A stretch of 21,026 bases of DNA, from IMG/VR virus record IMGVR_UViG_3300030618_000673, positions 1 through 21,026 of that record; one strand, 5' to 3'. This DNA comes from a virus. Below, in pieces: positions 3,210-21,026 of the stretch. How positions within the stretch are numbered: the first letter of the stretch is position 1; every line of letters starts with the position of its first letter. Position numbers and translations under genes: made by a program. The notes under the pieces were generated by a model that worked only from the letters and a program-made list of their open reading frames with translations, made no database searches and was not told the origin of the DNA.

Positions 3210-3437
3210 TCAGCCAGCCTCCGGCTTGGTCCGCTTTGCTTCGAGCAGCAGTAAGATATCCAACGTATGTCCCGTAATACGCGAGCTGGCAGAAGAAAGT
3301 TTCTTTGCAAGCTCATAACTGGGTCGTTTCCTCCCGTGCGCAATGTGTTTGAAGTAAGCATAACTCGTACCGGCATCGGCACAGACAGCTCGCACCTTGT
3401 CTGTTCCGACCATGCTCCAAAACTGCAACGCATTCAT
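3210..3437 (-). CDS. Cro-like / XRE-type small DNA-binding protein
   Basis: A 75-residue protein starting at the ATG at 3437, preceded by AAGGG. An upstream in-frame TTG at 3446 would add three residues and has a worse context. MNALQFWSMVGTDKVRAVCADAGTSYAYFKHIAHGRKRPSYELAKKL is a compact helix-turn-helix: KVRAVCADAGTS (helix 2 and turn), YAYFKHIAHG (recognition helix), RPSYELAKKL (helix 4). This resembles small YdaS/Cro-type phage regulators, which act as dimers on operators between divergent promoters. It is transcribed away from the CI-like gene at 3602, giving the classic divergent switch, with operators B and C in the 160-base intergenic region. It probably represses the opposing gene or its own; the direction of control is inferred. 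Confidence 0.7.
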   Translation of the reverse strand: MNALQFWSMVGTDKVRAVCADAGTSYAYFKHIAHGRKRPSYELAKKLSSASSRITGHTLDILLLLEAKRTKPEAG

Positions 3438-3462
3438 AGCGGCCAACCCTTATGACAAATAA

Positions 3463-3475
3463 TATCCAAATGGTA
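3463..3475. promoter_or_regulatory. Operator-like site B (13-bp motif)
   Basis: TATCC-AAA-TGGTA, continuing GTTTA. It lies 26 bases upstream of the Cro-like start, where the leftward promoter should be. On the minus strand TTGGTT lies just before it and a TATTAT-like box overlaps its left edge. The 18-bp extended form differs at only two positions from the reverse complement of site H (4686-4669). Confidence 0.6.
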
Positions 3476-3534
3476 GTTTAACCAAGCATGAATTGGAAGT
3501 ACCCAGGCAAAATTTAGCATCACGCCAGCCCTCT

Positions 3535-3557
3535 TAGAGTACCATTATGGTACTCTA
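3535..3557. promoter_or_regulatory. 23-bp palindromic operator (site C) between the divergent regulators
   Basis: The arms TAGAGTACCAT (3535-3545) and ATGGTACTCTA (3547-3557) are exact reverse complements around a single central T. The core TACCA-TTA-TGGTA (3540-3552) is the most symmetric copy of the recurring motif. It lies 45 bases upstream of the CI-like start and about 98 bases upstream of the Cro-like start. It is very probably the principal operator of the switch; which protein binds is not determined. Confidence 0.8.
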
Positions 3558-3601
3558 TCAACCAACAAAGGTATGTTTACCATTCACACGGAGTGAACCC
3601 G

Positions 3602-3988
3602 ATGGACATCAAACAAATCCGTTCGAAGAACTATCACTTCCTCTTCGGGCGCTTCAAAGCAAGCATTTGGGCTGAGTTTCCAGAGGAGCCGGAACGCGGC
3701 ATGCTCAAGCGCTTTGCCGAGAAGCTCGATTTGTCGGAAGCCTATATTTCTCATATCAATACCGGCTACAAACAGATCGGCGACAAAACCGCCAGGAAAT
3801 TTGAGCTGGCATTAAAACTACCTAACGGGTGGATGGACAAAGAACATCATGAAGGCGCCCCGCGTACCCCGGAAGAAGATGCTTTTGTCGCAGCCGCGGT
3901 CAAATTATATAGGGAGTCGCCCAATGAAGCACAAGCTATGTTGTTGAAAGCATTCAGCGATAAGCTGCATGCGGCCGGAACCAAATAA
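3602..3988 (+). CDS. CI-like HTH repressor without peptidase domain
   Basis: A 128-residue protein from the ATG at 3602, with Shine-Dalgarno CGGAG ending 8 bases upstream. The in-frame GTG at 3593 overlaps that ribosome site and is rejected. The N-terminal half is an XRE-type HTH: RGMLKRFAEKLDLSEAYISHINTGYKQIGDKTARKFELALKLPNGWMD. The recognition helix is around AYISHINTG, and the phrase L-x-L-P-x-G-W-M-D is typical of phage CI/C2 repressors. The C-terminal half (EEDAFVAAAVKLYRESPNEAQAMLLKAFSDKL) is a short helical region, not an S24/LexA peptidase, so RecA-stimulated self-cleavage is not expected. It reads divergently from the Cro-like gene across palindromic operator C and is followed after about 120 bases by a small unknown gene with the same leader style. 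It most likely keeps the tail operon silent. Confidence 0.78.
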   Translation: MDIKQIRSKNYHFLFGRFKASIWAEFPEEPERGMLKRFAEKLDLSEAYISHINTGYKQIGDKTARKFELALKLPNGWMDKEHHEGAPRTPEEDAFVAAAVKLYRESPNEAQAMLLKAFSDKLHAAGTK

Positions 3989-4046
3989 ATAAGAGCAGCG
4001 CACGGCATTTCCAATTTTTAGATAATTACAATCCATTTCACTATGC

Positions 4047-4059
4047 TACCATGTTGGTA
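4047..4059. promoter_or_regulatory. Operator-like site D (13-bp motif)
   Basis: TACCA-TGT-TGGTA is a perfect 5-bp-arm dyad with the same 3-base centre spacing as site C. It lies 48 bases upstream of the GTG at 4107, between the repressor gene and the next small gene, so it may control that gene separately. Confidence 0.6.
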
Positions 4060-4106
4060 TTATTTACCTGCTGCAAAGGCGGCGATAATTTCTACATGGA
4101 GTGAAT

Positions 4107-4334
4107 GTGATTACAGGATCGACGGCACACGAAGTCGTAATTGAATCGCTCGCAAACGCAGGGGCGGCTGACACTCGGGTCATGTTGCAACCAGCTGGCA
4201 ATAGTTCGATTTGTCAAAGTTTCGATGAAGCGCTATTTGTAAGCTTGCTTTCTACGGTACGGGCAAGCGAGCGCGCCGAGTTACTCTTGCAGCTTCGCCA
4301 GGTAGTAGATAGCAGCAAGAAAAAAAATCCATAA
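4107..4334 (+). CDS. Small unknown protein downstream of the repressor
   Basis: About 75 residues from the GTG at 4107, 5 bases after GGAG (4098-4101). An in-frame GTG at 4101 overlaps that ribosome site. The spacing copies the leader of the repressor gene (GGAGTGAA in both). I do not recognise the family. The C-terminal half (SFDEALFVSLLSTVRASERAELLLQLRQVVDSSKKKN) is an amphipathic helical segment with a basic tail. There is no membrane segment and no cysteine cluster; one cysteine is visible. It sits between operator D and the strong promoter at 4351, so a regulatory partner or antirepressor role is possible but unproven. No ATG start exists, which lowers confidence. Confidence 0.5.
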   Translation: MITGSTAHEVVIESLANAGAADTRVMLQPAGNSSICQSFDEALFVSLLSTVRASERAELLLQLRQVVDSSKKKNP

Positions 4335-4350
4335 AGGTAGTTTTTATCGC

Positions 4351-4379
4351 TTGACAGGGTGAATAGATCCAACTACTAT
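4351..4379 (+). promoter_or_regulatory. Strong sigma-70 promoter of the tail operon, overlapped by operators
   Basis: A perfect -35 box TTGACA (4351-4356) and TACTAT (4374-4379) are separated by exactly 17 bases, the best promoter I find by eye in the window. It points right, toward the structural operon. The -10 box coincides with operator-like site F (4374-4386), and site G (4385-4397) covers the predicted start region. The first likely gene downstream begins at 4753, leaving an untranslated leader of about 365 bases. This makes it the candidate late promoter. Confidence 0.7.
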
Positions 4380-4386
4380 TTAGCTA
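4374..4386. promoter_or_regulatory. Operator-like site F on the -10 box
   Basis: Read on the minus strand this is TAGCT-AAA-TAGTA followed by GTT, matching 10 of 13 positions of site B. It overlaps the -10 box of the 4351 promoter, so a bound repressor would block RNA polymerase. AACTACT (4371-4377) and AGTAGTT (4394-4400) also form a dyad that brackets sites F and G. Confidence 0.5.
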
Positions 4387-4604
4387 CCGTAACAGTAGTT
4401 TATCTGAGACAAGCTAAGCAGCGGAGAATACAGGCCTGACAAGGCCGGCCTTCTTGCTTGGACCACCTCATCGGGCAGAAGCACCGACCTATCCACGAGT
4501 ATGAGTCGCAGGTCTCCACGCGTTGAGTCATAAGCAATACAGCCGATGTGACAGCAACTGCCCGAACGTATCAGCTCATCAAGGCCCGACGATTCCACGG
4601 GCAT
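4380..4604 (-). CDS. Possible small unknown protein antisense to the tail-operon leader
   Basis: An open frame of 74 residues from an ATG at 4604 on the minus strand, running back to operator G. The sequence (for example CCHIGCIAYDSTRGDLRLIL and LLPDEVVQARRPALSGLY) is protein-like, with a hydrophobic C-terminal part and four cysteines, but I recognise no family. The nearest Shine-Dalgarno (GGAGG, about 4619-4623) is about 15 bases away, too far to be convincing. If real it would run against the tail operon and could interfere with its leader. It may equally be a chance frame. Confidence 0.25.
   Translation of the reverse strand: MPVESSGLDELIRSGSCCHIGCIAYDSTRGDLRLILVDRSVLLPDEVVQARRPALSGLYSPLLSLSQINYCYGS
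4385..4397. promoter_or_regulatory. Operator-like site G at the predicted start of transcription
   Basis: TACCG-TAA-CAGTA followed by GTTTA keeps the outer TACC...GTA positions and the GTTTA extension seen at site B. It overlaps site F by two bases and covers the region just after the -10 box of the 4351 promoter. Confidence 0.5.
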
Positions 4605-4752
4605 GATTCATTTGAATGACCTCCACTAGCCGCCGCGCCACCAGATGCATGGATTTTTCACGCTTATATAAACTACCGTTTAGATATTCTATATAAGCTG
4701 CGGCTAGCTTAGCTCTAGGTATTTGCTTTCCTCGCCAGGACCTTCTCAGATC
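4398..4752 (+). other. Long untranslated leader of the tail operon
   Basis: About 355 bases between the 4351 promoter and the first rightward gene, with no rightward frame worth calling. It contains the exact 12-bp palindrome AAGGCCGGCCTT (4441-4452) and operator-like site H (4674-4686) in an A+T-rich stretch (about 4655-4700). A long non-coding leader after a late promoter is the arrangement used by Q-type antitermination in lambdoid phages. That parallel is inference. Confidence 0.4.
4674..4686. promoter_or_regulatory. Operator-like site H upstream of the RyR-domain gene
   Basis: On the minus strand this reads TATCT-AAA-CGGTA followed by GTTTA, 16 of 18 positions identical to the extended site B. 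It lies in an A+T-rich stretch 67 bases upstream of the ATG at 4753 and may mark a second promoter or a repressor roadblock in the leader. Confidence 0.6.
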
Positions 4753-5088
4753 ATGAATCCAACGCAAATGGCGCGTATCGCGCATGAGGTCTATCGCGCG
4801 TATTGCGCATCGGTAGGCGGCGATCAACCTTTGCCTTGGGACAAGGTCTCACCGTGGCAGCGAGAAACTGCGGTCAACGACGTCGTGGTTTTGCGAAAGG
4901 GCCTAATGACACCGCACCGCATGCATGCCATCTGGTGTGAGCACAAAACCCGTGCCGGCTGGACTTTCGGCCCGATCGAAGACACTGTCCGCAAGACCCA
5001 CCCGCATCTCGTGCCCTATGACGCGCTACCCGCAACACTGCGCGCCAAGGATGCACTGTTGCACGCCGTGGTCCGCAATGCGCTTTAG
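4753..5088 (+). CDS. RyR-domain-like phage protein
   Basis: A 111-residue protein from the ATG at 4753. A TTG at 4723 would add ten poor-quality residues. The sequence follows the RyR domain (PF02026) pattern: QMARIAHEVYRAYCASVGG (helix 1), PWDKVSPWQRETAVNDVV (W-x6-W-Q-x5 block), HRMHAIWCEHKTRAGWTFGP, then THPHLVPYDALPATLRAKDALLHAVV, the very typical HP.LVPY..L....KAKD.L..AV end. Bacterial and phage RyR-domain proteins are usually stand-alone and about this size. The domain was named from ryanodine receptors, and its molecular role in phages is not established. It would be the first gene of the tail operon. The Shine-Dalgarno (AGGA, about 4737-4740) is rather far from the ATG. The family call is good; the function is open. 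Confidence 0.75.
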   Translation: MNPTQMARIAHEVYRAYCASVGGDQPLPWDKVSPWQRETAVNDVVVLRKGLMTPHRMHAIWCEHKTRAGWTFGPIEDTVRKTHPHLVPYDALPATLRAKDALLHAVVRNAL

Positions 5089-5545: not shown

Positions 5546-6388
5546 ATGGCAGACGTCACCGACGTACAAAATGTGCTGGTTGGGCTGATTTCCGCATGGA
5601 TCTATCCAAACGGCAGTGCGAACCCATCAGCCTTGGGCTTTCCAGTTCATGTGAGCTCGGGGTGGCCGGTTATGGCCAACATTAATCAAGACCTCGCGGT
5701 CGGCATCGCGGACATTACGATCTACGGAACCGACTTCGAGACAAACACCACACGCTACGTCGAGCGCTGGCAGACCCAAACACCGGTCACGCCGACCCTG
5801 ACGCTAAGTGCGTCAGGTCGAACCATCACGGTGGGCGGCACGCTACCTGTGCCGTATGTCCAGCAAAATCTCGCCGTCTTTGTGAATGATGTTCCCTACA
5901 CCTACGCGGCACAATCGACCGATACACCCACGACGATTGCCACCGCCCTCGCCACACTGATTGCCGCCGCAGTGCCCGGCACCAGTAGCGCCGGACAGCT
6001 CATCACATTGCCGGCGGGCGCACTGCTGGGCGCTTTGCGCGTAGGTGGAAGCGGCAGCACGATCAAGGAAATCCGGCGCCAAAACCGGCTCTTCAATATC
6101 GGCATGTGGGCCAGTACCGCCGCGCAACGCACCGCTATCGCCAACTTGATCGACCCGTTACTGGCTGATTTGCGAGGCATTTCGATGCCCGATGGCTTCA
6201 CCGCAAGAATCGTCTATCGCAATAGTCCACAACGCGACCTCAGCGACAAGACTCCCATATTCCAACGCGATCTTTGCTACTGGATCGAATTTGCGACGAC
6301 GAAAACGCAGAACACCGCACAAGTCGTGGTCGGCAAATTCAACGTTCGCGATGCGAACGGAAATTTACTTTCAACAGCCTCAACTTAG
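5546..6388 (+). CDS. Tail terminator / neck-like phage protein
   Basis: A 280-residue protein from the ATG at 5546, with AGGGAA five bases upstream. The frame is open further upstream but that extension is low-quality. It opens MADVTDVQNVLVGLISAWIYP. The C-terminal half (RRQNRLFNIGMWASTAAQRT, IANLIDPLLADLRGISMPDG, FQRDLCYWIEFATT) has the alpha/beta layout of small tail terminator or neck proteins. The middle (about 85-165) is a Thr/Ala-rich insert with a beta-domain feel (TLTLSASGRTITVGGTLPVP). Tail terminators cap the tube and sheath once full length is reached and are retained in headless tailocins. Position immediately ahead of the sheath module fits. The exact family is not certain; an alternative is a gp37/DUF1834-type protein. 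Confidence 0.6.
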   Translation: MADVTDVQNVLVGLISAWIYPNGSANPSALGFPVHVSSGWPVMANINQDLAVGIADITIYGTDFETNTTRYVERWQTQTPVTPTLTLSASGRTITVGGTLPVPYVQQNLAVFVNDVPYTYAAQSTDTPTTIATALATLIAAAVPGTSSAGQLITLPAGALLGALRVGGSGSTIKEIRRQNRLFNIGMWASTAAQRTAIANLIDPLLADLRGISMPDGFTARIVYRNSPQRDLSDKTPIFQRDLCYWIEFATTKTQNTAQVVVGKFNVRDANGNLLSTAST

Positions 6389-6399
6389 GAGTGCAACAT

Positions 6400-6573: not shown

Positions 6574-6600
6574 GCGCTACTCCCTTATTAACCCAAATCA

Positions 6601-6625
6601 AGTCGCCCGCCGGGCGGCTTTTTTT
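6601..6625 (+). terminator. Intrinsic terminator just before the sheath gene
   Basis: AGTCGCCC (6601-6608), loop GCC, GGGCGGCT (6612-6619): an 8-bp stem with one G.T wobble, followed directly by six more T residues. It is 16 bases upstream of the sheath start. Confidence 0.85.
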
Positions 6626-6640: not shown

Positions 6641-8191
6641 ATGATTTACCAGCTTGGACAATTGAACAGCACCGCCCTCTCCGCTCCGGGCATCTATTTG
6701 CAAATTCAACCGCCGCCCACCATCGTCAACGGCGTCCCCTCCAATCTGCTGGCGCTGGTCGGCGTAGGTTCATGGGGCCCCGTCAATGCGCCTGTGCTGG
6801 TCGGTGCACCAAGCGATGTCAGCAATTACCTCGGCGCGATGCAAGTGCGCAAATACGATGTTGCGACCGCAATCGACGTCGCCTTCAAACAAGGTGCAAC
6901 GGCCATCATGTATGTGCGCGTCACGGACGGCACGGATATGGCAGCCACCGCCACCTTACTCGATACCGCAGGCACGCCGGCAATCGGCGCTACGCTCACG
7001 GCCATTTATACGGGCACGGGCGGCAACGCCATGACGGCCTCGCTGTTGACGGGCACCAAGACGGGCACTTTCAAGCTCGTGATCACCCGGCCGGGCGTCA
7101 CACCGGAAGTGTTCGACAATATTCCGGGAACGGGCGCGGTACTCTGGAGCAATCTGGTGAACGCGGTCAACAACGGCCAGTCGAATGTGCGCGGCCCGTC
7201 GCAACTGGTGGTCGCCAGCATCGGCCCGTCGGTTGCAGCGCCGAACATCAGCGCCAGCGCCGCATTTGCGGGCGGTCTGGACGGCACCGCAGCGGTCACG
7301 GACGCCACCTTAGTCGGCACCGACACGCTGCCGCGCAAGGGCATGTATGCACTGCGCTCCAGCGGCGCGCAGGTCGGCGCACTCATCGACCACAGCGACT
7401 CGACCGCCTGGAGCACCATCCTCGGCTTCGCGCTGCAAGAAGGTATCTATATGGGCGTGCAGGCTGCGCCTGGACAGTCGTATAGCGCGGCCTCGGCACT
7501 GCTGAATAGCGCCGGCGCCGATGGTTACGGCATCAAGGTGCTGGTCGGCGATTGGATCACCTATTACGATGCGGTGAACAAGCAAAACCGCCTGCTTGGC
7601 CCGACGGTGTTTTGGGCGGCCAAACAATCTGCGCTGGCACCGCACCTGTCCAGTCTGAACAAGATGCTGACCGGCATCGTCAGCACCCAGCGCACCGCGC
7701 AGAAATTGCCGTATAGCGGCGCGGAAGTCGGCGCGGCAAAAATCGCCCGACTCGACCTGATCACCAATCCATCGCCGGGCGGCAATTACTTCGCCATGCA
7801 GACGGGGGTCAATGCATCCAGCGATCCGGCCACCAACGGCGACAACTACACGCGCATGACGAACTACCTCGGGCTGACGCTTGCGGCTGCGTTCGGCAAG
7901 GTCATCGGTCAGAATCAAACCACCGATTTGCGCCGCGACGTGCAAACCGCGATGCAATCGTTCTTGTCCAACTTGTGGCGCCAGAACATGATCGGCGATG
8001 TGAATAACCCGACCACTGTGCCTTATACCGTCGAAATCGATGCAGCGAACAACCCGAGCCAGCAAGTGGCCAACGGTTATATGCAAGCCGATGTGTCGGT
8101 CAAATACCTGTCGGTAATCTTCTACTTCCTGATCAACTTGCAGGGCGGCCAAACCGTCGTGATTCAAACGCGCAGCGCCGCTGCCGCGTAA
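6641..8191 (+). CDS. Contractile tail sheath protein
   Basis: A 516-residue protein, the usual size of Mu gpL / P2 FI-type sheaths. It opens with the typical sheath start (IYQLGQLNSTALSAPGIYLQ), then PSNLLALVGVGSWGPVNAPV and YLGAMQVRKYDVATAIDVAF, in which GVGSWGPVN and the 'set up a new contour' segment are hallmarks of the family. The middle (about 110-215) is a variable Thr/Ala-rich insertion domain facing outward. The C-terminus (TVEIDAANNPSQQVANGY, MQADVSVKYLSVIFYF) is the conserved inner domain that exchanges strands with neighbours and contacts the tube. Sheath rings contract to drive the tube into the target envelope, so this gene shows the particle is contractile. It is preceded by an intrinsic terminator and followed by another, so its mRNA may be separately dosed. 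Confidence 0.95.
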   Translation: MIYQLGQLNSTALSAPGIYLQIQPPPTIVNGVPSNLLALVGVGSWGPVNAPVLVGAPSDVSNYLGAMQVRKYDVATAIDVAFKQGATAIMYVRVTDGTDMAATATLLDTAGTPAIGATLTAIYTGTGGNAMTASLLTGTKTGTFKLVITRPGVTPEVFDNIPGTGAVLWSNLVNAVNNGQSNVRGPSQLVVASIGPSVAAPNISASAAFAGGLDGTAAVTDATLVGTDTLPRKGMYALRSSGAQVGALIDHSDSTAWSTILGFALQEGIYMGVQAAPGQSYSAASALLNSAGADGYGIKVLVGDWITYYDAVNKQNRLLGPTVFWAAKQSALAPHLSSLNKMLTGIVSTQRTAQKLPYSGAEVGAAKIARLDLITNPSPGGNYFAMQTGVNASSDPATNGDNYTRMTNYLGLTLAAAFGKVIGQNQTTDLRRDVQTAMQSFLSNLWRQNMIGDVNNPTTVPYTVEIDAANNPSQQVANGYMQADVSVKYLSVIFYFLINLQGGQTVVIQTRSAAAA

Positions 8192-8253: not shown

Positions 8254-8685
8254 ATGTCTTTGAATGGCTTTTCCGTTGGGCGTGATATTGCGCTCAACAT
8301 TCAAACTCCGACGGGTGGTCTGTCACTCAACCTCATTACGAAATTCAGCGCCAAACCCGAAACCACCGATAAAAAGGTCAAGGGTATCGATGGCCGGACT
8401 CGCCATCTGAGTTTCCCGGATGGCTGGTCCGGGAGTTTCGAAGTCGAGCGGCAAGACAGCACCATCGACGACTTTTTCGCAGCCCAAGAAGCCAGTTATT
8501 ACAACGGCAAAAGCGTCACCGCCAGCACCATCACCGAAACCATTACCGAAGCCTCGGGTGCGGTGTCCCAGTATCAGTTCACCGGCGTGATCTTCACGTA
8601 CGACGATGCAGGCGATTGGTCCGGCGACGATAGCGTCAAGCAAAAAATCAAGTTCTATGCCGAAACCCGTATCAAGGTAGCGTAA
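8254..8685 (+). CDS. Tail tube protein
   Basis: A 143-residue protein from the ATG at 8254 (AGGG eight bases upstream). Gene order (immediately after the sheath), length and sequence (VGRDIALNIQTPTGGLSLNL, a central FSAKPETTDKKVKGIDGRTRH strand/loop, and KQKIKFYAETRIKVA) fit the Mu gpM-type tube family (PF10618), a beta-barrel that stacks as hexameric rings inside the sheath. Its TAA stop overlaps the ATG of the next gene (TAATG, 8683-8687), so the chaperone is translationally coupled to the tube. Confidence 0.9.
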   Translation: MSLNGFSVGRDIALNIQTPTGGLSLNLITKFSAKPETTDKKVKGIDGRTRHLSFPDGWSGSFEVERQDSTIDDFFAAQEASYYNGKSVTASTITETITEASGAVSQYQFTGVIFTYDDAGDWSGDDSVKQKIKFYAETRIKVA

Positions 8686-9062
8686 TGACCAAACTCAATG
8701 TCCGGACCCAGGGTAAAACGCCCTCCCAGGAACTGATCGCGAATACGGTTGCCGCGGTAGTCGTCACGACCGCCGCCGGCAGCAAGATCACGCTCAAGAA
8801 ACCGGGAGTCTTGTCGCAATTTCGCCTGGTAAGAATGCTGGGCGATGCGGCTAAAAACCAAGTGTATGTCGGCATGGTGATGCCGCTGACCTACATTATC
8901 GAAATCGACGGTCATCCGGTGGCTTTCCCCAACAGCGAACGCGAGATTGAGGCACTCATTACGCGTCTCGATGAAAACGGCGTGACGACCGTGATGGAAG
9001 GGGTGCAAGCTCATTTCGGCGGCGAGGATGCTGAGCAGGTACAGGAAGAAATAAAAAACTAG
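8685..9062 (+). CDS. Tail assembly chaperone (zero-frame product)
   Basis: A 125-residue protein that starts on the tube stop codon (TAATG). It resembles the Mu-like gp41/tail assembly protein family: N-terminal beta-rich segment, RLVRMLGDAAKNQVYVGMVM, then YIIEIDGHPVAFPNSEREIEAL and a charged C-terminus EDAEQVQEEIKN. Tail assembly chaperones wrap the tape measure before the tube polymerises and are made in two forms by -1 frameshifting. Here the last codons before TAG are ATA AAA AAC, so the heptamer A AAA AAC (9053-9059) ends at the stop, as listed separately. Confidence 0.88.
   Translation: MTKLNVRTQGKTPSQELIANTVAAVVVTTAAGSKITLKKPGVLSQFRLVRMLGDAAKNQVYVGMVMPLTYIIEIDGHPVAFPNSEREIEALITRLDENGVTTVMEGVQAHFGGEDAEQVQEEIKN
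9053..9059 (+). promoter_or_regulatory. Programmed -1 ribosomal frameshift site (A AAA AAC)
   Basis: A canonical X-XXY-YYZ slippery heptamer in the correct phase, directly followed by the zero-frame TAG (9060-9062). Slipping back one base reads CTA GCC ACG TCT and stays open for 57 codons to a TGA overlapping the next start. Downstream CCGGTC (9075-9080) and GGCTGG (9094-9099) can pair with two G.U wobbles, a possible stimulatory hairpin. This is the classic tail-chaperone recoding (lambda G/GT, Mu gp41/42). Confidence 0.88.
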
Positions 9063-9232
9063 CCACGTCTGTCCCGGTCGGCGAAGCGCTTTGGCTGGTT
9101 AAAAACGGTGTCCCGTTCGATGTTGCGTTTGCGCTGGATAGCACGACCCGCGCTGCGTTTGCGATCAAATTCTCCGAATTTGAAGGGCACCGTTTCAATT
9201 ATCAAACCATGTCTTTTGAGGAGTCCAAATGA
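9059..9232 (+). CDS. Tail assembly chaperone, -1 frame extension (read only by frameshift)
   Basis: This frame has no start of its own and is entered from the 8685 gene by the -1 slip, giving a fusion of about 182 residues. The extension is clearly protein-like: VPVGEALWLVKNGVPFDVAF, then STTRAAFAIKFSEFEGHRFN, then YQTMSFEESK. In the long form the extra domain is thought to recruit tape measure and tube protein (known for lambda gpGT). The Shine-Dalgarno of the next gene (GAGGAG) lies within its last codons, and its TGA overlaps the next ATG (ATGA, 9229-9232). A plain gene prediction would leave this as a gap. Confidence 0.85.
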   Translation, partial: LATSVPVGEALWLVKNGVPFDVAFALDSTTRAAFAIKFSEFEGHRFNYQTMSFEESK

Positions 9233-9717
9233 GCACCCTTCAATTTACAAGCCTGGGCAAATTCGCCGCCCACCTGCTGACTTTGCAGAACAGCATTGCG
9301 GATGAAATGGAGTTGGGACTGACTCAAGTCGCGCAACAGCTCACCGCGACCATGCTGGACGAACTGCTTACTTTGCAGCAAAGCTCGGACACCGATCCGA
9401 CCACCGGCATTCCGCTTACGACCTCGCCGGCGACGGCTACAAGCGCAAGCGGCGCGTCATCGCCAGCCGCATCCGGCGATTCCGTGCAGGTCACGCAAGC
9501 CTTGCGCGACTCGATCGGCAGCGTGGTGACAAGCGACACGCTCGTAATCGGCTCGGACAGCGATACGGCGGTCGATCTTGAACTTGGGACAGACACCATC
9601 CCGCCCCAGCCCTTCCTCGGGCCGGCGGTTATACAAAACGAGGATCGCATCAAGGAGTTGCTCGGCCATGCGCTGGCCGCAGGATTATTAGGTCGTACGG
9701 AAGTTCCGTCGGTCTGA
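9229..9717 (+). CDS. Tail completion / HK97 gp10-like protein
   Basis: A 162-residue protein with a strong Shine-Dalgarno (GAGGAG) and an ATG overlapping the chaperone stop. A helical N-terminus (about 1-48) is followed by a Ser/Thr/Ala-rich linker (about 50-85: SSDTDPTTGIPLTTSPATAT) and a conserved C-terminus: QALRDSIGSVVTSDTLVIGS, then DLELGTDTIPPQPFLGPAVI. The 'G(T)..IPPQPFL.PA...' phrase is diagnostic of gp10/gpS/gpZ-type tail completion or virion morphogenesis proteins, which act at the head-proximal tail end. Its presence between chaperone and tape measure is not the usual Mu order. The Ser/Thr linker is longer than expected. Confidence 0.7.
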   Translation: MSTLQFTSLGKFAAHLLTLQNSIADEMELGLTQVAQQLTATMLDELLTLQQSSDTDPTTGIPLTTSPATATSASGASSPAASGDSVQVTQALRDSIGSVVTSDTLVIGSDSDTAVDLELGTDTIPPQPFLGPAVIQNEDRIKELLGHALAAGLLGRTEVPSV

Positions 9718-9974
9718 CCCACGCACCGCGCGCAACCGGCTCCTCCGAGATATAAGCCCACAGTACATCGCTTCAGAAAAATAGCTGCATGACCCCGGCA
9801 CGCATGTTTTGACGTTTCTCAACGTCGCTCGACACGCGCTCGCCGGGCCTCCGGCTGCGCGCACGTCCCGAGGTGGACCGCGGCAGCATGAGGTCGCCCG
9901 CAGCGACGCCAGGACGTCGCGCTGGCACAGCATGCATCGACTCAATTCTGAGGCTGCATTTAAAGGACGGTTTC
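9718..9974 (+). other. Non-coding gap before the tape measure gene
   Basis: A 257-base stretch without a supportable gene inside an operon whose other genes mostly overlap. It contains a dyad GACGTT-TCTC-AACGTC (9811-9826) and a GC-rich dyad GCCGG-GCCT-CCGGC (about 9843-9856). Neither is followed by a T-run. The tape measure frame is open upstream to 9873, but that part is Arg/Ala-rich and lacks a ribosome site. Confidence 0.4.
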
Positions 9975-13856: not shown

Positions 13857-14542
13857 GATCCATCAATGCATTATCCAATGCGATGCGGCAGCAGGCCGAA
13901 ATCTCAGCAGGCACCAAAGCACTGCCGCGCATGGGTCTGGTCAGCAGTTATGACCCCAACAAACACAGCGCCAAGATTCTTTGGCAACCCGATGGTATCG
14001 AGTCCGACTGGATGCCGGTCGGCGCCGTTGGCGTAGGCGCCGGATTCGGCGTGCTCTGCGCGCCCAATCTGGGCGATATGGTACTGGTCGAATTTTCCGA
14101 AGGCAGCAGCAACGCTCCAAAGATTGTCGGCCGCTACTTTTCCAATATCAACGTGCCGCCCAGCGTACCTTCCGGCGAAACCTGGATCGTTCACAAAAGC
14201 GGCTCGGTACTTAAATTTCATAACAGCGGCGTGGTCGAACTCGTGACCGCAGCCGATTTAAATGCCACCGTCGGCGGCAACCTAAATGCGACCGTCTCGG
14301 GCGCAGCCAGCTATACCGCCAGTTCGCATACCTTTACCGGCCCGGTCACGATGAAGGCGACGCTAAACGTCGCACAAGCCATCACAGGTCAAGGCGGTAT
14401 GGCGATTTCGGGCGGCTCGGGCGCAGCGGTCACGGGCAATCTGAATGTCACCAACGGCAATGTCAGTGCCGACGGCATCGACCTGAAAACCCATACGCAT
14501 AGCGACCCGCAAGGCGGTTTCGTCGGTGCGCCGCAGGGATAA
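13853..14542 (+). CDS. Baseplate assembly protein V / spike with metal-binding HxH tip
   Basis: A 229-residue protein starting on the hub stop (ATGA). Residues about 20-105 are the OB-fold (RMGLVSSYDPNKHSAKILWQ, VGAVGVGAGFGVLCAPNLGD, MVLVEFSEGSS) of P2 gpV / Mu gp45. The C-terminal half is a Gly/Asn/Thr repeat region (LNATVGGNLNATVSG, FTGPVTMKATLNV, AVTGNLNVTNGNVSADGIDL), expected of a triple-stranded beta-helix, and ends KTHTHSDPQGG. The H-x-H near the tip is the motif that in P2 and related spikes binds an iron ion in a trimer of histidine pairs (established for P2 gpV). The spike pierces the outer membrane. It is complete; no lysozyme domain is fused. Confidence 0.93.
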   Translation: MRSINALSNAMRQQAEISAGTKALPRMGLVSSYDPNKHSAKILWQPDGIESDWMPVGAVGVGAGFGVLCAPNLGDMVLVEFSEGSSNAPKIVGRYFSNINVPPSVPSGETWIVHKSGSVLKFHNSGVVELVTAADLNATVGGNLNATVSGAASYTASSHTFTGPVTMKATLNVAQAITGQGGMAISGGSGAAVTGNLNVTNGNVSADGIDLKTHTHSDPQGGFVGAPQG

Positions 14543-14566: not shown

Positions 14567-14965
14567 ATGGACCTATTTCATTACTGGGGAGAGGATTTAC
14601 AAGCCTCGCCCACCGGCGATCTTTCGCTGGCGGATATGAGCACTACGACCAAGCAGGAAATTCTGCGCGCCCTGATGACCAACGCGGCACTCAGCGATAG
14701 CGCGGGCAATCCGCTTACCGCGGCCGATTATCTGGACCATCCCGATTTCGGCGCAGGCTTGCCGCGACGTATCGGCGATCTGCTCGATCTCGGGCAGATC
14801 AGTGCGGTGGTAATGGGCGTCGTTTTGTCATTCCCCGAGGTATCTCGTTCTCCACGCCCGGTCGTCGATGTAACAGCGTTCAACGACGGCGCGACCATTT
14901 CAATACAGTACGTCGATACCGCCAGCGGCGGTTCCGAACTGCTTTCTTTTGACATCAAGCCATGA
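14567..14965 (+). CDS. Baseplate protein W / gp25-like wedge protein
   Basis: A 132-residue protein with AGGA before the ATG. It opens DLFHYWGEDLQASPTGDLSL and continues QEILRALMTNAALSDSAGNP, LDHPDFGAGLPRRIGDLLD, the size and layout of T4 gp25/GpW/Mu gp46 ('D..G..L......G......Q.IL.R.LT......Y...P.FG..L...I'). Gp25 is the conserved wedge that nucleates sheath assembly at the baseplate. Its stop overlaps the J start (ATGA, 14962-14965). Confidence 0.82.
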   Translation: MDLFHYWGEDLQASPTGDLSLADMSTTTKQEILRALMTNAALSDSAGNPLTAADYLDHPDFGAGLPRRIGDLLDLGQISAVVMGVVLSFPEVSRSPRPVVDVTAFNDGATISIQYVDTASGGSELLSFDIKP

Positions 14966-16119
14966 CGGTACAAACTCAATCGTTTACACAAATCCTCCAG
15001 GGATTTGCCGCGACCGTGCAAGGCGCGGCGTCCACTCTCGTTAATTTTGTCGTCGGCTCGATTCTGCGCGCCGTCGGCGAGGGCGTTGCCTGGGTCTCGC
15101 TATGGCTGCAAGGACTGATCCTGCAAGCCATCGCCTTGACACGCGCCACCACCTCGAACGGCGCAGATCTCGATTCATGGTGCGCCCAATACGGCTTTAC
15201 GCGCCTCTTGCCCAATGCCGCCAGCGGCGCTGTCAGTTTCGCGCGCTTCACCGCCACCCAACAGGCTGTGGTGCCGGTGGGCGCAATCGTGCAGACCGGT
15301 GACGGCTCCCAGCAATTTCAAGTGATTGCCGACACCACCAACCCCGCTTATAACGTCACGCTGAACGGCTTTGTACTTGCTGCCGGCATGTCCAGCATTC
15401 TGGCCACCGTGGTCGGCGTCACACCCGGCAATAACTCACTGAACCTGCCCGATGCCTCGGGCAATATTTCCGCCGGCACCATCACCCAGCTATATCAATC
15501 TATTCCCGGCATCGATACGGTCAGCAATCCACTCGCCTTCAGCAACGGCTTCAACGCCGAAAGCGATATGGCGATGCGCATTCGTTTTGTCTCCTACCTC
15601 GCGACCTTGGCCAAGGCGACCAAACTGGCAGTGGGCGCGGCCATCACCGCGCTTGGCGCAAACTTCACCTATACCTTGGTCGAGAATCTGAACTACGCAG
15701 ACAACTCGCCTCATATGGGCTATTTCTATGCAGTGGTCGATGACGGCACGGGAGCGCCGCCCTCCACCACACTCTCGACCGTATATAACGCCATCGATGC
15801 AGTCCGGCCGTTCACCTCGACCTTTGGGGTATTTCCGCCGACGCTCCAACCGGTGGTGGTCGCCATGACGCTGACCACCAGCTCGACCACCAGCGCCGGA
15901 CACGCCGCCACCGTGGCACTGGTCAGCACAGCCGTCACCACGTACATCAACAGCCTGGTACTCGGGCAATCGTTGTCGTACTTCAGGCTCAGCCAGATTG
16001 CCTTCGATGCCAGCAGCGACGTGATCGACATCTCCGGCTATACGCTGAACGGCGGTACGCTCGACGTGCCGGCGTCCAACCAACAGGTGATCAAAACCAC
16101 TAGCGTAACGGTGATCTGA
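14962..16119 (+). CDS. Baseplate J-like protein
   Basis: A 385-residue protein of the PF04865 family. The N-terminus (QSFTQILQGFAATVQGAAST, VGSILRAVGEGVAWVSLWLQ, then LDSWCAQYGFTRLLPNAASG) is family-typical. A beta region follows with VPVGAIVQTGDGSQQFQV and GVTPGNNSLNLP, then NGFNAESDMAMRIRFVSYLA, the J signature 'G...E.D...R.R'. The C-terminus SQIAFDASSDVIDISGYTLN is the usual inner-wedge end. J dimers link hub and fibres and switch the baseplate to the contracted state. It overlaps the gene on each side by a few bases. Confidence 0.93.
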   Translation: MTVQTQSFTQILQGFAATVQGAASTLVNFVVGSILRAVGEGVAWVSLWLQGLILQAIALTRATTSNGADLDSWCAQYGFTRLLPNAASGAVSFARFTATQQAVVPVGAIVQTGDGSQQFQVIADTTNPAYNVTLNGFVLAAGMSSILATVVGVTPGNNSLNLPDASGNISAGTITQLYQSIPGIDTVSNPLAFSNGFNAESDMAMRIRFVSYLATLAKATKLAVGAAITALGANFTYTLVENLNYADNSPHMGYFYAVVDDGTGAPPSTTLSTVYNAIDAVRPFTSTFGVFPPTLQPVVVAMTLTTSSTTSAGHAATVALVSTAVTTYINSLVLGQSLSYFRLSQIAFDASSDVIDISGYTLNGGTLDVPASNQQVIKTTSVTVI

Positions 16120-16787
16120 TGGCGACCGGAGACCAAGCAGATATTTTCGCGCGCCTCAAAGCATTGATGCCGCGCGGTTGGTTCGGCGACAACTCACCCT
16201 TGCTAGATGCCATCCTGCAAGGCTGCGCCAATGCGTTGGCCGCGGTGTACCTCGCCTATAGCTACCTGCTGCTGCAAACCCGGATCCAGACATCCAGCGA
16301 TGGGTGGCTCGATCTCAGTGCTGCCGATCACTTCGGCGAACAGGGTTTGCCGCGCAAGGTAAGTGAAGCCGATGCCAGCTATCGCAATCGGATTCTGGTG
16401 AACATCATTCGCGAGCGCGGTACCCGCAACGCCGTAACCAAGGTGTTGACCGATTTGACCGGGCGCGCGCCGACCATCGTCGAGCCGCAACGTCCCTCGG
16501 ATACAGGCGCTTACGGCGGCCCCATGATCGGCTACGGATCCGCCGGCGCCTACGGCTCGATGTCGCTCAACTACCAGGCATTTGTCACGGCCTATCGCCC
16601 AATCGGTAGCGGCATTCCGTATGTCGCAGGCTACGGTTGCTCGACGGGCGGCTATTCGCAAGCGTCACAAGCCGAGTACGCGCCTTATGCCTCGATGCAA
16701 AACAGCGTCAGCGATGCCGACATTTATGCCGCCATCGATTCGGTAAGGCCGGCTGGAACGATTATCTGGACCCGCATCACCAGTTAA
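16119..16787 (+). CDS. Baseplate tail protein I / gp48-like
   Basis: A 222-residue protein starting on the J stop (TGATG). It opens QADIFARLKALMPRGWFGDN, then ILQGCANALAAVYLAYSYLL, in line with Mu gp48/P2 gpI-type wedge proteins (ARL..LLPRG....., then a helix). DGWLDLSAADHFGEQGLPRK and EADASYRNRILVNIIRERGT ('D.YR..I') are strong. The C-terminal 75 residues are Gly/Tyr/Ser-rich (YGGPMIGYGSAGAYGSMSLN, AGYGCSTGGYSQASQAEYAP), an unusual insert before the final SVRPAGTIIWTRITS. I-type proteins attach the fibre to the wedge, and the fibre gene follows after a terminator. Confidence 0.85.
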   Translation: MATGDQADIFARLKALMPRGWFGDNSPLLDAILQGCANALAAVYLAYSYLLLQTRIQTSSDGWLDLSAADHFGEQGLPRKVSEADASYRNRILVNIIRERGTRNAVTKVLTDLTGRAPTIVEPQRPSDTGAYGGPMIGYGSAGAYGSMSLNYQAFVTAYRPIGSGIPYVAGYGCSTGGYSQASQAEYAPYASMQNSVSDADIYAAIDSVRPAGTIIWTRITS

Positions 16788-16855: not shown

Positions 16856-18532
16856 TTGGACCGCACTATTATTTACCCCGGCGCCATTCCGCTTGAAACC
16901 GATTTGCTGAATACAAACCGGAACACTTTCACGGCATTGGGCTCGCTCGCACAAGATCTGTTCGGCACCAGCACGGTGTTTTCAGGTTTGAACTGCGTAC
17001 CGACCGCCTTGGCGTCGATGTCGGTCAGCATCGCTCCAGGGCGGGTGTACGCTTTGCAAAACCGAGACAATACAGCCTACTCCTCGCTTCCTGCCGACAC
17101 CGCACATCAGCTGATGAAGCAAGGTATCTTGCTCGATGCACAGACATTTTCATGCCCGGCACCGCAGACCTCCGGCTTTTCAGTGAACTATCTAATTTCG
17201 GCGAATTTTGTCGAGCAGGATGTCAGCCCGATCGTACTGCCTTACTACAACGCCACCAATCCGGCACAGGCCTTCAGCGGCCCACCCGCCAACGGCAACT
17301 CCAGCGGCGCGGCGCAAAACACCGTGCGTCAGAATACTGTGCAGCTCACGCTGACTCCCGGCGTAGCTGCCGCCACCGGCAACCAGATGACCCCGTCGGC
17401 GCCAGCCGGAGCCACACCGCTGTGGGTGATTACCGTAGCTTATGGTCAGACCTCGATCACCGCTGCGAATATCGCGGCTGCGCCTAATTCGCCGTTTGCG
17501 CCTACCGGAGGGTATTTTGCGGCGGTCGGCGAACGCTATAGCGGCATTCAGAACGTTGCCGGCAATTCGATTTTGACGACTGCGGCGCTCGGCGCGCTGG
17601 TTAATGTCACTGCGACCGGAACCACGCAGACGCTACCACCTGCTGCGAATTGTCCCAATGGCACCAGCATTACGATTGTCTATATGCAATCGAGCGGCTC
17701 GGTTAGCGTGGTACACAACGGCAACGATATCTTGGTGTTTGGCCAAGGGAATAGTACGAACAGTCTCACGCTGAATCCGGGTGAGGAAGTGCAGTTTGTG
17801 TCGAATGGGGTGAATAGTTGGGTGAGTGCCGGGCAGACGCTGTCGACGGGGGTGACTGCGGCGCAATTTGATAATAGTAGTAAGTTGGCGACGACTTCAT
17901 TTGTGCAACAAGCACTGGGTGCAGTTTCCGGAGAAAATCAGTACAACTCATCGCAAATACTTACCGCAGCCAATGATGCAAATAAATTGATCGTTATCGG
18001 TTCGACGGGCGGAAACATAACACTTCCCGCTCGTTCGACCGTCGTGCCGGGGACAAAACTCTATTTCATGTCTCAAGGCGGGACATCAACTCTTTTTACT
18101 CAAGGGAGTGATGCCTTATGGCTTGACACAACGACCGTCCCGAATCTTCCATTTGGCTTGGGTGATTATTTCGAAGTGACCGCTGCGTCAAACAGCAATG
18201 TATGGATGGTTACATCGGGGACACCATTGCTGGGCAAATGTAGTGGTTTCGCTTCATCCCAATTAGGTATCGGCTATCAAAAGCTGCCCAGCGGCATGAT
18301 TATCCAGTGGGGCTCAGGAGCAACGAATAGCTCAGGGACATTCACAACATCTCTACCTATCACGTTCCCGAATGGATGGTTTACAGGATATTCATCCTGC
18401 CAACAAGCAGGGAGTTTCACAACCACCGTTTCCAACCTCGTCACAACAACAATATCGGTGATTGGCTACTCATCGTCTAACGGCGTCCCGGCAGTCGGTT
18501 TGTATGTGACATGGCTTGCACTCGGCCGATAA
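16856..18532 (+). CDS. Tail fibre protein 1 (TTG start)
   Basis: A 558-residue protein. The Shine-Dalgarno TTTTGGAG ends at 16848. The ATG at 16851 is only two bases away and out of frame (it reads MLWTALLF... and soon stops), while the TTG at 16856 is 7 bases away and opens MDRTIIYPGAIPLETDLLNT. Residues about 1-130 are the baseplate-proximal domain, about 220-340 a repeated beta region, and the KLATTSFVQQALG phrase near 355 marks the join to a C-terminal receptor-binding part. That part is unrelated to fibre 2 except for GYQKLPSGMIIQWGSG, the signature of the gp53-like fibre C-terminal domain, and the final W-x-A-[LI]-G. The C-terminus is expected to bind the surface receptor (LPS or a protein). 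Downstream, AAAGGAG leads to its chaperone. Confidence 0.88.
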   Translation: MDRTIIYPGAIPLETDLLNTNRNTFTALGSLAQDLFGTSTVFSGLNCVPTALASMSVSIAPGRVYALQNRDNTAYSSLPADTAHQLMKQGILLDAQTFSCPAPQTSGFSVNYLISANFVEQDVSPIVLPYYNATNPAQAFSGPPANGNSSGAAQNTVRQNTVQLTLTPGVAAATGNQMTPSAPAGATPLWVITVAYGQTSITAANIAAAPNSPFAPTGGYFAAVGERYSGIQNVAGNSILTTAALGALVNVTATGTTQTLPPAANCPNGTSITIVYMQSSGSVSVVHNGNDILVFGQGNSTNSLTLNPGEEVQFVSNGVNSWVSAGQTLSTGVTAAQFDNSSKLATTSFVQQALGAVSGENQYNSSQILTAANDANKLIVIGSTGGNITLPARSTVVPGTKLYFMSQGGTSTLFTQGSDALWLDTTTVPNLPFGLGDYFEVTAASNSNVWMVTSGTPLLGKCSGFASSQLGIGYQKLPSGMIIQWGSGATNSSGTFTTSLPITFPNGWFTGYSSCQQAGSFTTTVSNLVTTTISVIGYSSSNGVPAVGLYVTWLALGR

Positions 18533-18545
18533 AGGAGATACACAG

Positions 18546-19094
18546 ATGGGTCAAAAACTCGCAGCATATAACGCGCAAGGCGCAATCACCGGCTTCTACG
18601 ACAGCGTGGATAGTCCCGTTCCAAGCAGTATCACCAATGTCATCGCCATCACCGACCAGCAATGGCAAACCTGCCTCTCGACACCCGGCTACACCGTCGT
18701 CAACGGCGCTCTGGTCGCACCCGCGCCACCGACAAATGCGCAGTTATTGGCCGCCGCGCAAGCAGCACAAATTGCCAGCTTGTATGCAGCCTGTTCTTCC
18801 GCAATTACGGCGGGCTTCACATCCAACGCACTGGGAGCCGCGCATAGCTATCCCAGCACGCTGATGGACCAGTCCAACCAGGTGACGGTATCGAATAACG
18901 CTGCAGGCGGTTCGCTATGGTGCGAAACCGGCTCGGCCTGGGCATTCGTCACGCATACCCAGGCACAAGCCCGACAAGTCGTTGCCGATTTTTCGAAATA
19001 CCTAAACAGCAAGCAATCGGAACTTGTAAACCTGACCACCATTGTCAATACCGCAAGTATCGTTGCAGCAGTGCAAGCTGTCGCATGGAGTTAA
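18546..19094 (+). CDS. Tail fibre assembly chaperone 1 (DUF4376-like)
   Basis: A 182-residue protein from the ATG at 18546 (AGGAG at 18534-18538). The upstream in-frame extension overlaps fibre 1 and is rejected. The N-terminus (MGQKLAAYNAQGAITGFYDS, then VIAITDQQWQTCLSTPGYTV, VNGALVAPAPPT) is the pattern of tail fibre assembly proteins. The C-terminal part (GSAWAFVTHTQAQARQVVAD, FSKYLNSKQSELVNLTTIVN) resembles DUF4376, with NNAAGGSLWCETG in between. Such proteins help the fibre trimerise and often come in matched pairs with a fibre C-terminus. Its first 104 bases are identical to those of the gene at 20923. Confidence 0.8.
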   Translation: MGQKLAAYNAQGAITGFYDSVDSPVPSSITNVIAITDQQWQTCLSTPGYTVVNGALVAPAPPTNAQLLAAAQAAQIASLYAACSSAITAGFTSNALGAAHSYPSTLMDQSNQVTVSNNAAGGSLWCETGSAWAFVTHTQAQARQVVADFSKYLNSKQSELVNLTTIVNTASIVAAVQAVAWS

Positions 19095-19228
19095 AACCCT
19101 AAGTCGAAGCAGGCCGGCGCTGCCGATATAAGCATCCGGTTTCCCCTTGTTGTGGACAGCAACCGCCGGCCGTAATACTCATTCGGGCCCGCCCGATCCG
19201 TTAGACCGCCTCACATACACCATGTCAC

Positions 19229-19256
19229 AACCCCGCTACGGCGGGGTTTTCTTTTT
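19229..19256 (+). terminator. Intrinsic terminator before fibre gene 2
   Basis: AACCCCGC (19229-19236), loop TACG, GCGGGGTT (19241-19248), then TT-C-TTTTT: a perfect 8-bp stem. It lies about 135 bases after the chaperone 1 stop, in a 168-base spacer otherwise without a feature, and just ahead of the fibre 2 Shine-Dalgarno (TTTTTGGAG). Confidence 0.88.
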
Positions 19257-19268
19257 GGAGAAATGCTT

Positions 19269-20918
19269 TTGGACCGTACTATTGTTTACCCCGGCGCCAT
19301 TCCGCTTGAAACCGATTTGCTGAATACAAATCGGAACATCATGACGGCATTGGGCTCGCTCACGCAGGATTTGTTCGGTAGCAACACAGTATTTTCAGGC
19401 TTGAACTGCGTACCGACGGTCCCGGCGGCGATGTCGGTCAGCATCGCTCCAGGGCGGGTGTATGCTTTGCAAAACCGTGACACCATCGCGTATTCGTCGC
19501 TCGGCACCGACATCACGCATCAACTCATGAAGCAAGGTATCTTGCTCGATACACAGACATTTTCATGCCCGGCGCCGCAGACCTCGGGCTTCGCAGTGAA
19601 CTACCTGATCTCGGCAAGTTTTGTCGAACAGGATATCGACCCGGTTGTGCTGCCCTACTACAATGCCGTCAATCCAGCGCAGGCCTTTAGCGGCCCACCC
19701 GTCAACGGCAACTCCAGCGGTGTGGCGCAAAACACTATTCGCCAGGACACCGTACAGCTCACACTGACTGTGGGTGTCGCCGCTGCCAACGGTAATCAGA
19801 TGACCCCTGCGGCACCGGTCGGGGCTACACCGCTGTGGGTTATCACAGCAACTTATGGTCAGACCTCGATCACCGCGGCGAATATTGCTGCGGCACCTAA
19901 CTCGCCGTTTGCACCCACCGGCGGGTACTTTTCAGCAGTGGGCGAACGCTATAGCGGCATTCAGAATATCGCCGGCAACTCGACTTTGACGACTGCGGCG
20001 CTCGGCGCGCTGGTCAATGTCACGGCGACCGGCACCACCCAAACCTTGCCACCTGCGGCGAACTGCCCAAACGGCACCAGCATTACGATTGTCTATATGC
20101 AATCGAGCGGTTCAGTCACCGTGATGCGTAATGGCAGCGATATTCTGATATTCGGCCAGGGTAATAGTACGAGTAACCTTACCCTCAGCCCTGGTGAGGA
20201 AGTGCAGTTTGTTTCGAATGGGGTGAATGGCTGGGTGAGCGCCGGGCAGACGCTTTCGACAGGGGTAACGCCACCATTAGGCGACAGTAGCAACAAGCTC
20301 GCGACGACCAGCTTTGTGCAGCGTGCTCTGGGTAATACGCAGGGGATCATTGGCGTGCAGAGCAGCCTAACGTTGACTCCATCGCAAGTAGGCTCGTTCG
20401 TCGAAATCAACGCCGGCAGCGGCATTGTTATTACCCTGCCAATGCCGACGGGGTTAGGCGGGGCATGTTTAAATTTCTACAACCCATCGACCAACCCGGT
20501 TTCTATTGTGGCGCCTCCGCCTAGCACCATCAATATTAACCTGACCAACATACCCGCCTATACGCTTCCAGCGGGCGGCACTCTGACATTGATGACAGAC
20601 GGTGCGTCATGGTCAATGATTGGAGGAAGTGGTACAGGTCAATTGTCGAGTACTGGTTATCAAAAATTTCCCAGTGGGTTAATTCTTCAATGGGGCTATT
20701 CAACCGCAGCAACCCAGACAACCCCCGCCTACGTCTCCTTCCCGATAAGCTTTCCCACGTCGCTTTTCTCTATAACACTCGGCCCGGCTGTCGCCGCAGC
20801 CAATGCAAATTCCTATAGTGTAAGTGCGGCATACACGGGAACTCACGGATTTAATCTCGTCAATAACAGTAGCAGCTCCGGTGCAGTCACCGCTTACTGG
20901 CAAGCGATAGGAATGTAA
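19269..20918 (+). CDS. Tail fibre protein 2 (paralogue of fibre 1 with a different C-terminus)
   Basis: A 549-residue protein from the TTG at 19269 (GGAG ends 8 bases before). An in-frame ATG at 19263 exists here and would add two residues, but it is only 2 bases from the Shine-Dalgarno, and the TTG also works in fibre 1. The first 355 or so residues match fibre 1 at roughly 85% (by eye), with runs such as VYPGAIPLETDLLNTNRN and ANCPNGTSITIVYMQSSGSV. After KLATTSFVQRALG the sequence diverges: QGIIGVQSSLTLTPSQVGSF, ITLPMPTGLGGACLNFYNPS, then the shared GYQKFPSGLILQWGYS motif and AVTAYWQAIGM. It therefore should have a different receptor. A chaperone start follows at 20923. Confidence 0.9.
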   Translation: MDRTIVYPGAIPLETDLLNTNRNIMTALGSLTQDLFGSNTVFSGLNCVPTVPAAMSVSIAPGRVYALQNRDTIAYSSLGTDITHQLMKQGILLDTQTFSCPAPQTSGFAVNYLISASFVEQDIDPVVLPYYNAVNPAQAFSGPPVNGNSSGVAQNTIRQDTVQLTLTVGVAAANGNQMTPAAPVGATPLWVITATYGQTSITAANIAAAPNSPFAPTGGYFSAVGERYSGIQNIAGNSTLTTAALGALVNVTATGTTQTLPPAANCPNGTSITIVYMQSSGSVTVMRNGSDILIFGQGNSTSNLTLSPGEEVQFVSNGVNGWVSAGQTLSTGVTPPLGDSSNKLATTSFVQRALGNTQGIIGVQSSLTLTPSQVGSFVEINAGSGIVITLPMPTGLGGACLNFYNPSTNPVSIVAPPPSTININLTNIPAYTLPAGGTLTLMTDGASWSMIGGSGTGQLSSTGYQKFPSGLILQWGYSTAATQTTPAYVSFPISFPTSLFSITLGPAVAAANANSYSVSAAYTGTHGFNLVNNSSSSGAVTAYWQAIGM

Positions 20919-20922
20919 ATAT

Positions 20923-21026
20923 ATGGGTCAAAAACTCGCAGCATATAACGCGCAAGGCGCAATCACCGGCTTCTACGACAGCGTGGATAGTCCCGTTCCA
21001 AGCAGTATCACCAATGTCATCGCCAT
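20923..21026 (+). CDS. Tail fibre assembly chaperone 2, partial
   Basis: The gene starts at the ATG at 20923, four bases after the fibre 2 stop, and runs off the right edge after 34 codons. All 104 bases are identical to 18546-18649 of chaperone 1, although the bases just upstream differ (AAATAT here, ACACAG there). The product therefore begins MGQKLAAYNAQGAITGFYDS like its paralogue. No good Shine-Dalgarno is visible; the gene may be coupled to the fibre stop. Confidence 0.85.
   Translation, partial: MGQKLAAYNAQGAITGFYDSVDSPVPSSITNVIA

Follow-up and report, generated by a model that had tools for sequence, protein, structure and literature searches.

A candidate R-type tailocin locus from a little-described myophage family without BLAST-level similarity to P2 or Mu

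The tailocins that have been studied well derive from a small number of phage kinds (P2, Mu, and lambda-like phages), and the R-type pyocins of Pseudomonas aeruginosa derive from P2-type phages. Repeated origin of tailocins is already known, and the R-type syringacins of Pseudomonas syringae are Mu derived and represent a separate instance in which a contractile phage tail was domesticated (PMC12090994). In Burkholderia cenocepacia, the tailocin BceTMilo is syntenic with phage KL3/P2, has kept an integrase, and is induced in a RecA-dependent manner (PMC5411513). Like the R-type pyocins, the locus described here encodes a headless contractile tail with regulators and lysis genes; like the syringacins, it is consistent with independent domestication of a contractile phage tail; and like BceTMilo, it is a putative contractile tailocin, probably of the Burkholderiaceae, with lysis genes. 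However, pyocins are P2 derived, whereas the tail genes of this locus matched no P2-type phage at E<1e-5; the syringacins are Mu derived, whereas tblastn with the sheath and baseplate J proteins gave no Mu-like phage; and, in contrast to BceTMilo, the locus comes from another tail lineage and has no integrase among its annotated genes.

The locus lies in a 21,026-bp virus record, which was analyzed at its full length and is referred to as the window. A second record, IMGVR_UViG_3300030524_000477 (G001; 26,104 bp), was 100% identical to window positions 2477 to 21026 (~18.5 kb) and extended the window by 7,554 bp to the right, giving a combined element of 28,580 bp that is numbered here in window coordinates. 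Two smaller copies of the locus (L023 and L024) matched at 99.99 to 100%, and viral-contig searches with the terminator and RyR proteins returned only copies of the window locus. The sequence-only reading had proposed a regulatory switch, a RyR-domain gene, and a contractile tail set. These genes were all present as open reading frames, most with profile support, and from 5561 to 20918 a single rightward run of intact frames made up the contractile tail, in the order terminator, sheath, tube, chaperone, completion protein, tape measure, LysM-ended distal protein, hub, spike, W, J, I, fiber 1, Tfa 1, and fiber 2:

5561..6388, + strand, tail terminator/collar protein (phrog_13532, of unknown function by profile; fold matches to phage neck, collar, and terminator proteins)
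6641..8191, + strand, tail sheath (phrog_23, 2e-30)
8254..8685, + strand, tail tube, by position and conservation (phrog_12993, 1e-50, function unnamed; adjoins the sheath in all relatives)
8685..9062, + strand, tail assembly chaperone, by position (phrog_20383, function unnamed)
9229..9717, + strand, tail completion (HK97 gp10-like) protein (phrog_5, 1.4e-6; TIGR01725 below cutoff)
9873..11786, + strand, tape measure protein, longest frame 637 aa, with translation possibly starting further downstream (phrog_28, 1e-19)
11792..12769, + strand, distal tail protein with a LysM-like end (phrog_21362, 5e-91; endolysin/hub LysM-type partial matches)
12762..13856, + strand, baseplate hub, gpD-like (phrog_52, 2.5e-33)
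13853..14542, + strand, spike, gpV-like (PF04717, 3e-8)
14567..14965, + strand, baseplate wedge, W-like, by position (no profile; 36 to 67% identical proteins at the same place in relatives)
14962..16119, + strand, baseplate J (PF04865, 2e-24)
16119..16787, + strand, baseplate I-like protein (phrog_26379, 1.6e-94)
16856..18532, + strand, tail fiber 1 (PF21882, 1e-11)
18546..19094, + strand, fiber chaperone Tfa 1 (phrog_1348, 1e-18)
19263..20918, + strand, tail fiber 2 (PF21882, 1.6e-15)
20923..21026, + strand, first part of Tfa 2, which runs past the window edge; fiber 3, Tfa 3, and the lysis genes follow in G001 (100% overlap with G001)

The contractile tail gene set expected of an R-type tailocin was therefore complete, with the tube, chaperone, and W assigned by position only. 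The fold of the terminator was predicted from a five-sequence alignment (pLDDT, 80; pTM, 0.58), and its matches were mostly necks, collars, and terminators, including the phage 812 neck (4e-6), T4 gp15, lambda gpU, and, as a further likeness to the pyocins, the pyocin R2 collar. Since the TM-scores were low (about 0.2 to 0.4), the predicted fold supports placing the product in the neck/collar/terminator class and does not imply a close relation.

The gene order of the window is closer to that of Mu than to that of the P2-derived pyocins. When the sheath and J proteins were searched by tblastn against 50,697 phage records (E<=1e-5), only Komagataeibacter phages, one Alicyclobacillus phage, and haloarchaeal viruses were matched; with these two queries, neither the P2-type homology that marks P2-derived tailocins nor, at BLAST sensitivity, the Mu-type homology that marks Mu-derived ones was detected. 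The nearest named phages, Komagataeibacter phages phiKX1 and phiKX2 (sheath, 37% identical; J, 39% identical), make headed myovirus particles (PMC8566455). They have the order of head genes, terminator-position gene, and sheath found in the phage relatives of the window and differ from the window in that their tail genes are preceded on the left by terminase, portal, and coat genes. Judged from its genes, the locus is thus a putative tailocin from a phage lineage without P2 or Mu similarity at the BLAST level.

To the left of the tail lie the RyR gene, the switch, two leftward phage-type genes, and the host flank:

2..1133, - strand, host flank with an acyltransferase (2-442; PF01553, 4e-7) and a beta-ketoacyl synthase (396-1133; PF13723, 9e-57), aryl-polyene/fatty-acid type
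1805..2464, - strand, o1805, phage-type gene, 219 aa, the leftmost gene recognizably of the element (phages G003, G006, and G007 have homologues, likewise placed upstream of o2477)
2477..2788, - strand, o2477, phage-type gene, 103 aa (phrog_1123, 1e-8; homologues in G003, G006, and G007)
3210..3446, - strand, small helix-turn-helix regulator of the switch, 78 aa (phrog_18104 transcriptional regulator, 8.5e-5; 53% identical in G006)
3460..4689, no strand, seven operator-like sites, at 3460, 3537, 3816, 4044, 4324, 4382, and 4671 (palindromes; matrix from sites of phage G006)
3593..3988, + strand, helix-turn-helix regulator/repressor, 131 aa, without an S24 peptidase domain (phrog_5736, 6.5e-10; 64% identical in phage G006)
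4101..4334, + strand, 77-aa open reading frame in place of the head module (open frame only)
4351..4379, + strand, candidate promoter of the rightward operon, TTGACA-17-TACTAT, sigma-70-like, between two operator-like sites (consensus match 10/12; promoter-like matches in the region not above chance)
4723..5088, + strand, RyR/R12-domain protein, 121 aa, RyDEP-like (PF02026, 1.5e-10, at residues 66 to 110; ligand residues H68, W71, H93, and D110)

Because the genes at 1805 to 2464 and 2477 to 2788 have homologues in phage relatives, the element starts left of 3210. The span from 3210 to 21026 proposed earlier holds a real tail locus, but its left limit was misplaced, the element having begun already by 1805. 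Host genes adjoin the element on this side (it was followed rightward to 28,580). The aryl-polyene neighborhood that had been suggested for the flank agrees with the presence of the PF13723 ketoacyl synthase and the PF01553 acyltransferase, a call made from these two genes only. Since the best homologues of the ketoacyl synthase were in the Burkholderiaceae, mostly at 50 to 60% identity, the host is probably a member of the Burkholderiaceae outside the sampled sets.

Profile searches found no S24 peptidase domain in either switch regulator. An operator matrix built from five sites of phage G006 gave seven matches in window 3400-4722 versus 0.32 expected, and one more at 2973; the form of the motif had first been suggested by two window palindromes, and the G006 and window site sets are not fully independent. 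In G006 itself, 31 matches versus 4.2 expected were scattered genome-wide. The palindrome TAGAGTACCAT-T-ATGGTACTCTA lies at 3535-3557 in the operator-like region of the window. LexA-type boxes were not enriched in the window locus (4 found versus 5.3 expected) and were rejected on this count.

Sheath searches gathered about 100 loci, among which the closest relatives of the window locus were head-bearing phages of ~48 to 54 kb, i.e., phages G003, G006, and G007, together with prophage G550 in a Burkholderiaceae genome. G003 has a 127-bp terminal repeat, consistent with a complete genome, and the tail genes of G006 and G007 are split over the record ends, consistent with circular permutation. 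Tail gene order and switch-regulator homologues are common to the window and all four relatives, and homologues of the leftward genes occur in G003, G006, and G007. The repressor and terminator are 14.4 kb apart in G003, 16.4 kb in G006, and 11.1 kb in G007 versus 1.57 kb in the window. In the three phages this interval, to the left of the terminator, holds the large terminase, portal, scaffold, and major head genes (in G007, a small terminase and an endonuclease could be recognized as well), whereas in the window it holds only the 77-aa open reading frame and the RyR gene. The claim that no head gene lies between switch and tail was borne out, with no terminase, portal, or capsid gene found in the window, and no head-protein remnant was found in window 1134-5600 (best E, 0.12). 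The terminase (phrog_2) and portal (phrog_145) profiles matched nothing in the window or G001; since they did match relatives (terminase in 8/8 and portal in 7/8 of the head-bearing records searched), this absence was not due to an insensitive search.

Lysis genes, reported earlier as not seen, are indeed absent from the window but exist ~3 to 6 kb past its right edge in G001, where Tfa 2, fiber 3, and Tfa 3 are followed by a holin-like gene, a GH19-type endolysin, spanin-like genes, and a secreted beta-helix-like protein. The holin and spanin names were given by size and position; the endolysin (phrog_181, 1e-66) was 60 to 65% identical to the endolysins of phages G006 and G003, and the lysis cassette is homologous to the one in the phages. 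The locus thus carries its own regulators and lysis genes, as expected of a tailocin. The gene for the secreted beta-helix-like protein, which is uncharacterized, lies at the right end (L103:1-1824). Window and G001 together hold three fiber-Tfa pairs. Block by block, the three fibers were ~75 to 100% identical over the first 280 aa and mostly 13 to 47% identical beyond residue 360, and dN/dS was about 0.1 over the first 280 aa and 0.10 to 0.20 for the Tfas. Given this low dN/dS and the divergent ends, all three fibers look maintained, with different tips. A Pseudomonas chlororaphis tailocin mounts three fibers in distinct particles (PMC12090994).

Clusters without a head module were also found in two other lineages of the family. 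A 41.6-kb contig of Rouxiella badensis DSM 100043 carries a tail set flanked by a cold-shock-type gene on one side and by LysR-, dsbB-, and fadR-like genes on the other; an S24 repressor and small genes occupy the place where the head module would be. In five genomes of a Ralstonia group, including Ralstonia sp. TCR112, neither head nor neck genes occur in the cluster. Four of them extend far enough to the left to show its neighbors, which are alike in all four: a DedA-type membrane protein and a GNAT acetyltransferase (preceded by flagellar genes in the two extending further). In these four, the first cluster gene belongs to one and the same repressor family, which was S24-type by profile in the single case tested. 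In one Ralstonia-group genome that was traced to the right, the endolysin is followed by apparent host genes, so that host genes were found on both sides in Rouxiella and in this genome; unless a profile is given, neighbor-gene names come from visual inspection of the sequence. We found no literature on Rouxiella tailocins and none dedicated to Ralstonia tailocins. A fourth, weaker headless candidate (L187) comes from a 1.7-Mb draft genome. Two further candidates that the first head queries had missed were rejected as headless, L035 because several large open reading frames lie upstream of its tail and L015 because it keeps a neck gene.

In a sheath tree of 58 sequences, the window nested with G003, G006, G007, and G550 among head-bearing phages. 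At least four changes between head-bearing and headless states were required (three without L187), and a single origin of headlessness was rejected (p-AU, 1e-39; the group was defined after part of the data had been seen). It therefore appears from the tree that a little-known myophage family lost its head genes separately, three times with reasonable security and possibly four.

These data bear on whether the locus is a decaying prophage remnant that lost its head module by chance and is now functionless. The replication genes and integrase are also gone, and a clearly broken relative exists (L185, in which the sheath has a stop and most of the tail is missing). However, all tail, fiber, and lysis frames are intact over ~23 kb, the fiber copies are under strong constraint, and only head, replication, and integration functions have been lost, a pattern that recurs in other lineages; decay is therefore improbable. 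Less probable still is a complete phage with its head genes elsewhere, past the right edge of G001 or dropped in assembly. Both records are incomplete and end before the right host junction, but the 7.5 kb that G001 adds beyond the window, where head genes might still have lain, held no terminase, portal, or capsid gene as far as element position 28,580. Moreover, annotated relatives carry the head module left of the terminator and not after the lysis genes, the left side of the window element runs directly into host genes, and the two records have an identical junction. An extracellular contractile injection system (eCIS) delivering protein cargo is very improbable, for although a secreted beta-helix-like protein lies at the right end and the tail genes follow a RyR gene, none of the genes was recognizable as a cargo-like toxin, no eCIS-type ATPase was among the annotated genes, the lysis cassette is of phage type, and the window sheath falls inside phages in the tree.

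The tail-only interpretation was thus strengthened by the headless rightward extension, by the absence of the relatives' head block from a defined place, and by two more headless lineages. With a probability of about 0.82, we consider the window to be a chromosomal R-type tailocin from a temperate myophage of a little-described family, minus the head/packaging module, integrase, and replication genes; the intact tail, regulators, operator-like sites, lysis cassette, and three constrained fiber-Tfa pairs have been retained. Counting against this reading are the lack of an S24 peptidase domain in both switch regulators, the failure of LexA-type boxes to exceed expectation, and promoter-like matches that do not rise above chance. 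The genes give the anatomy of an R-type tailocin, and its predicted activity would be bacterial killing. In the proposed mechanism, the repressor would hold the promoter near 4351-4379 via the flanking operators, and upon induction the rightward operon would be read from RyR through the terminator, sheath, and baseplate to the fibers and lysis genes. The terminator would cap the tube such that tails are completed without a head, and the holin, endolysin, and spanins would release the particles. These would bind target cells through one of three alternative fibers and then contract, and the empty tube would depolarize the target membrane.

The RyR protein may add a further function. RyDEP proteins act on Thoeris signals by cleavage or sequestration, and for most of the homologues that have been tested the activity is sequestration (PMC13232231, preprint). 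The window protein has both the PF02026 match and the H, W, H, and D ligand residues of an R12 domain; it is in the same Pfam family as RyDEP, and the spacing of H68, W71, H93, and D110 is identical to that of RyDEP H75, W78, H100, and D117. In contrast to RyDEP, it is encoded in a headless locus, and its anti-Thoeris role is a predicted one. The protein may benefit the producing cell or may be left over from the phage. No RyR gene was found near the tail among the relatives examined. It is conceivable, if rather doubtful, that one temperate myophage family repeatedly yields fixed bacterial weapons, the head module being a separable repressor-terminator block, and that here an RyR anti-Thoeris protein silences the producer's own Thoeris alarm, avoiding immune shutdown before lysis. 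If true, a counterdefense gene would sit inside a tailocin locus.

Together with its relatives, the window locus points to one more phage family from which tailocins arise. Since regulators and tail order are common to members with and without a head, the domestication step may be studied comparatively, with headed phages offering a clear before-and-after comparison. The headless clusters of Rouxiella badensis DSM 100043 and Ralstonia sp. TCR112 make the prediction testable in named strains.

Rouxiella badensis DSM 100043 (L006 / L123-L125) carries a headless tail cluster that is complete, spans about 23 kb and has host genes on both sides. Its repressor is of the S24 type, and it encodes two related fibres in tandem as well as a long fibre-like protein; no homologue of the completion protein was found between the chaperone and the tape measure. 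In the headless cluster of the Ralstonia group (L177/L190, L175, L178, L179 and L188), the genes to the left were the same ones in different genomes, and no published description of this cluster was found in the literature.

Two further loci carry tail genes of the same family. In L187/L191 (G363:C74), phage early genes lie ahead of the tail and no head genes were found upstream of the terminator; this locus may represent a fourth loss of the head genes, or else an artefact of the draft assembly. L185 (G558:C8) is a decayed copy with an internal stop in the sheath, in which the tube and chaperone are followed directly by the spike, the tape measure, distal protein and hub being absent.

Within the element itself, the following were recorded:

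4380-4827 (window), (-), two overlapping putative ORFs of 74 and 82 aa, opposite the region ahead of the RyR-domain gene
26757-28580 (element; L103:1-1824), (-), 607-aa protein at the extreme end of G001, the overlapping record that extends the element rightward

The 607-aa protein begins with what resembles a signal peptide, contains fibre-like repeats and matches the NosD beta-helix weakly; it is possibly a depolymerase.

In the head-bearing phage relative G006 (L108-L110), operator-like matches numbered 31, against 4.2 expected, and about 16 strong sites were dispersed along the phage:

7549, 19603, 23452, 25190, 28760 and 32551 (G006 record positions), examples of operator-like sites

One site lies directly upstream of the small terminase gene and one ahead of the lysis genes. 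This pattern is reminiscent of stoperators, and a many-site repressor system is predicted for G006.
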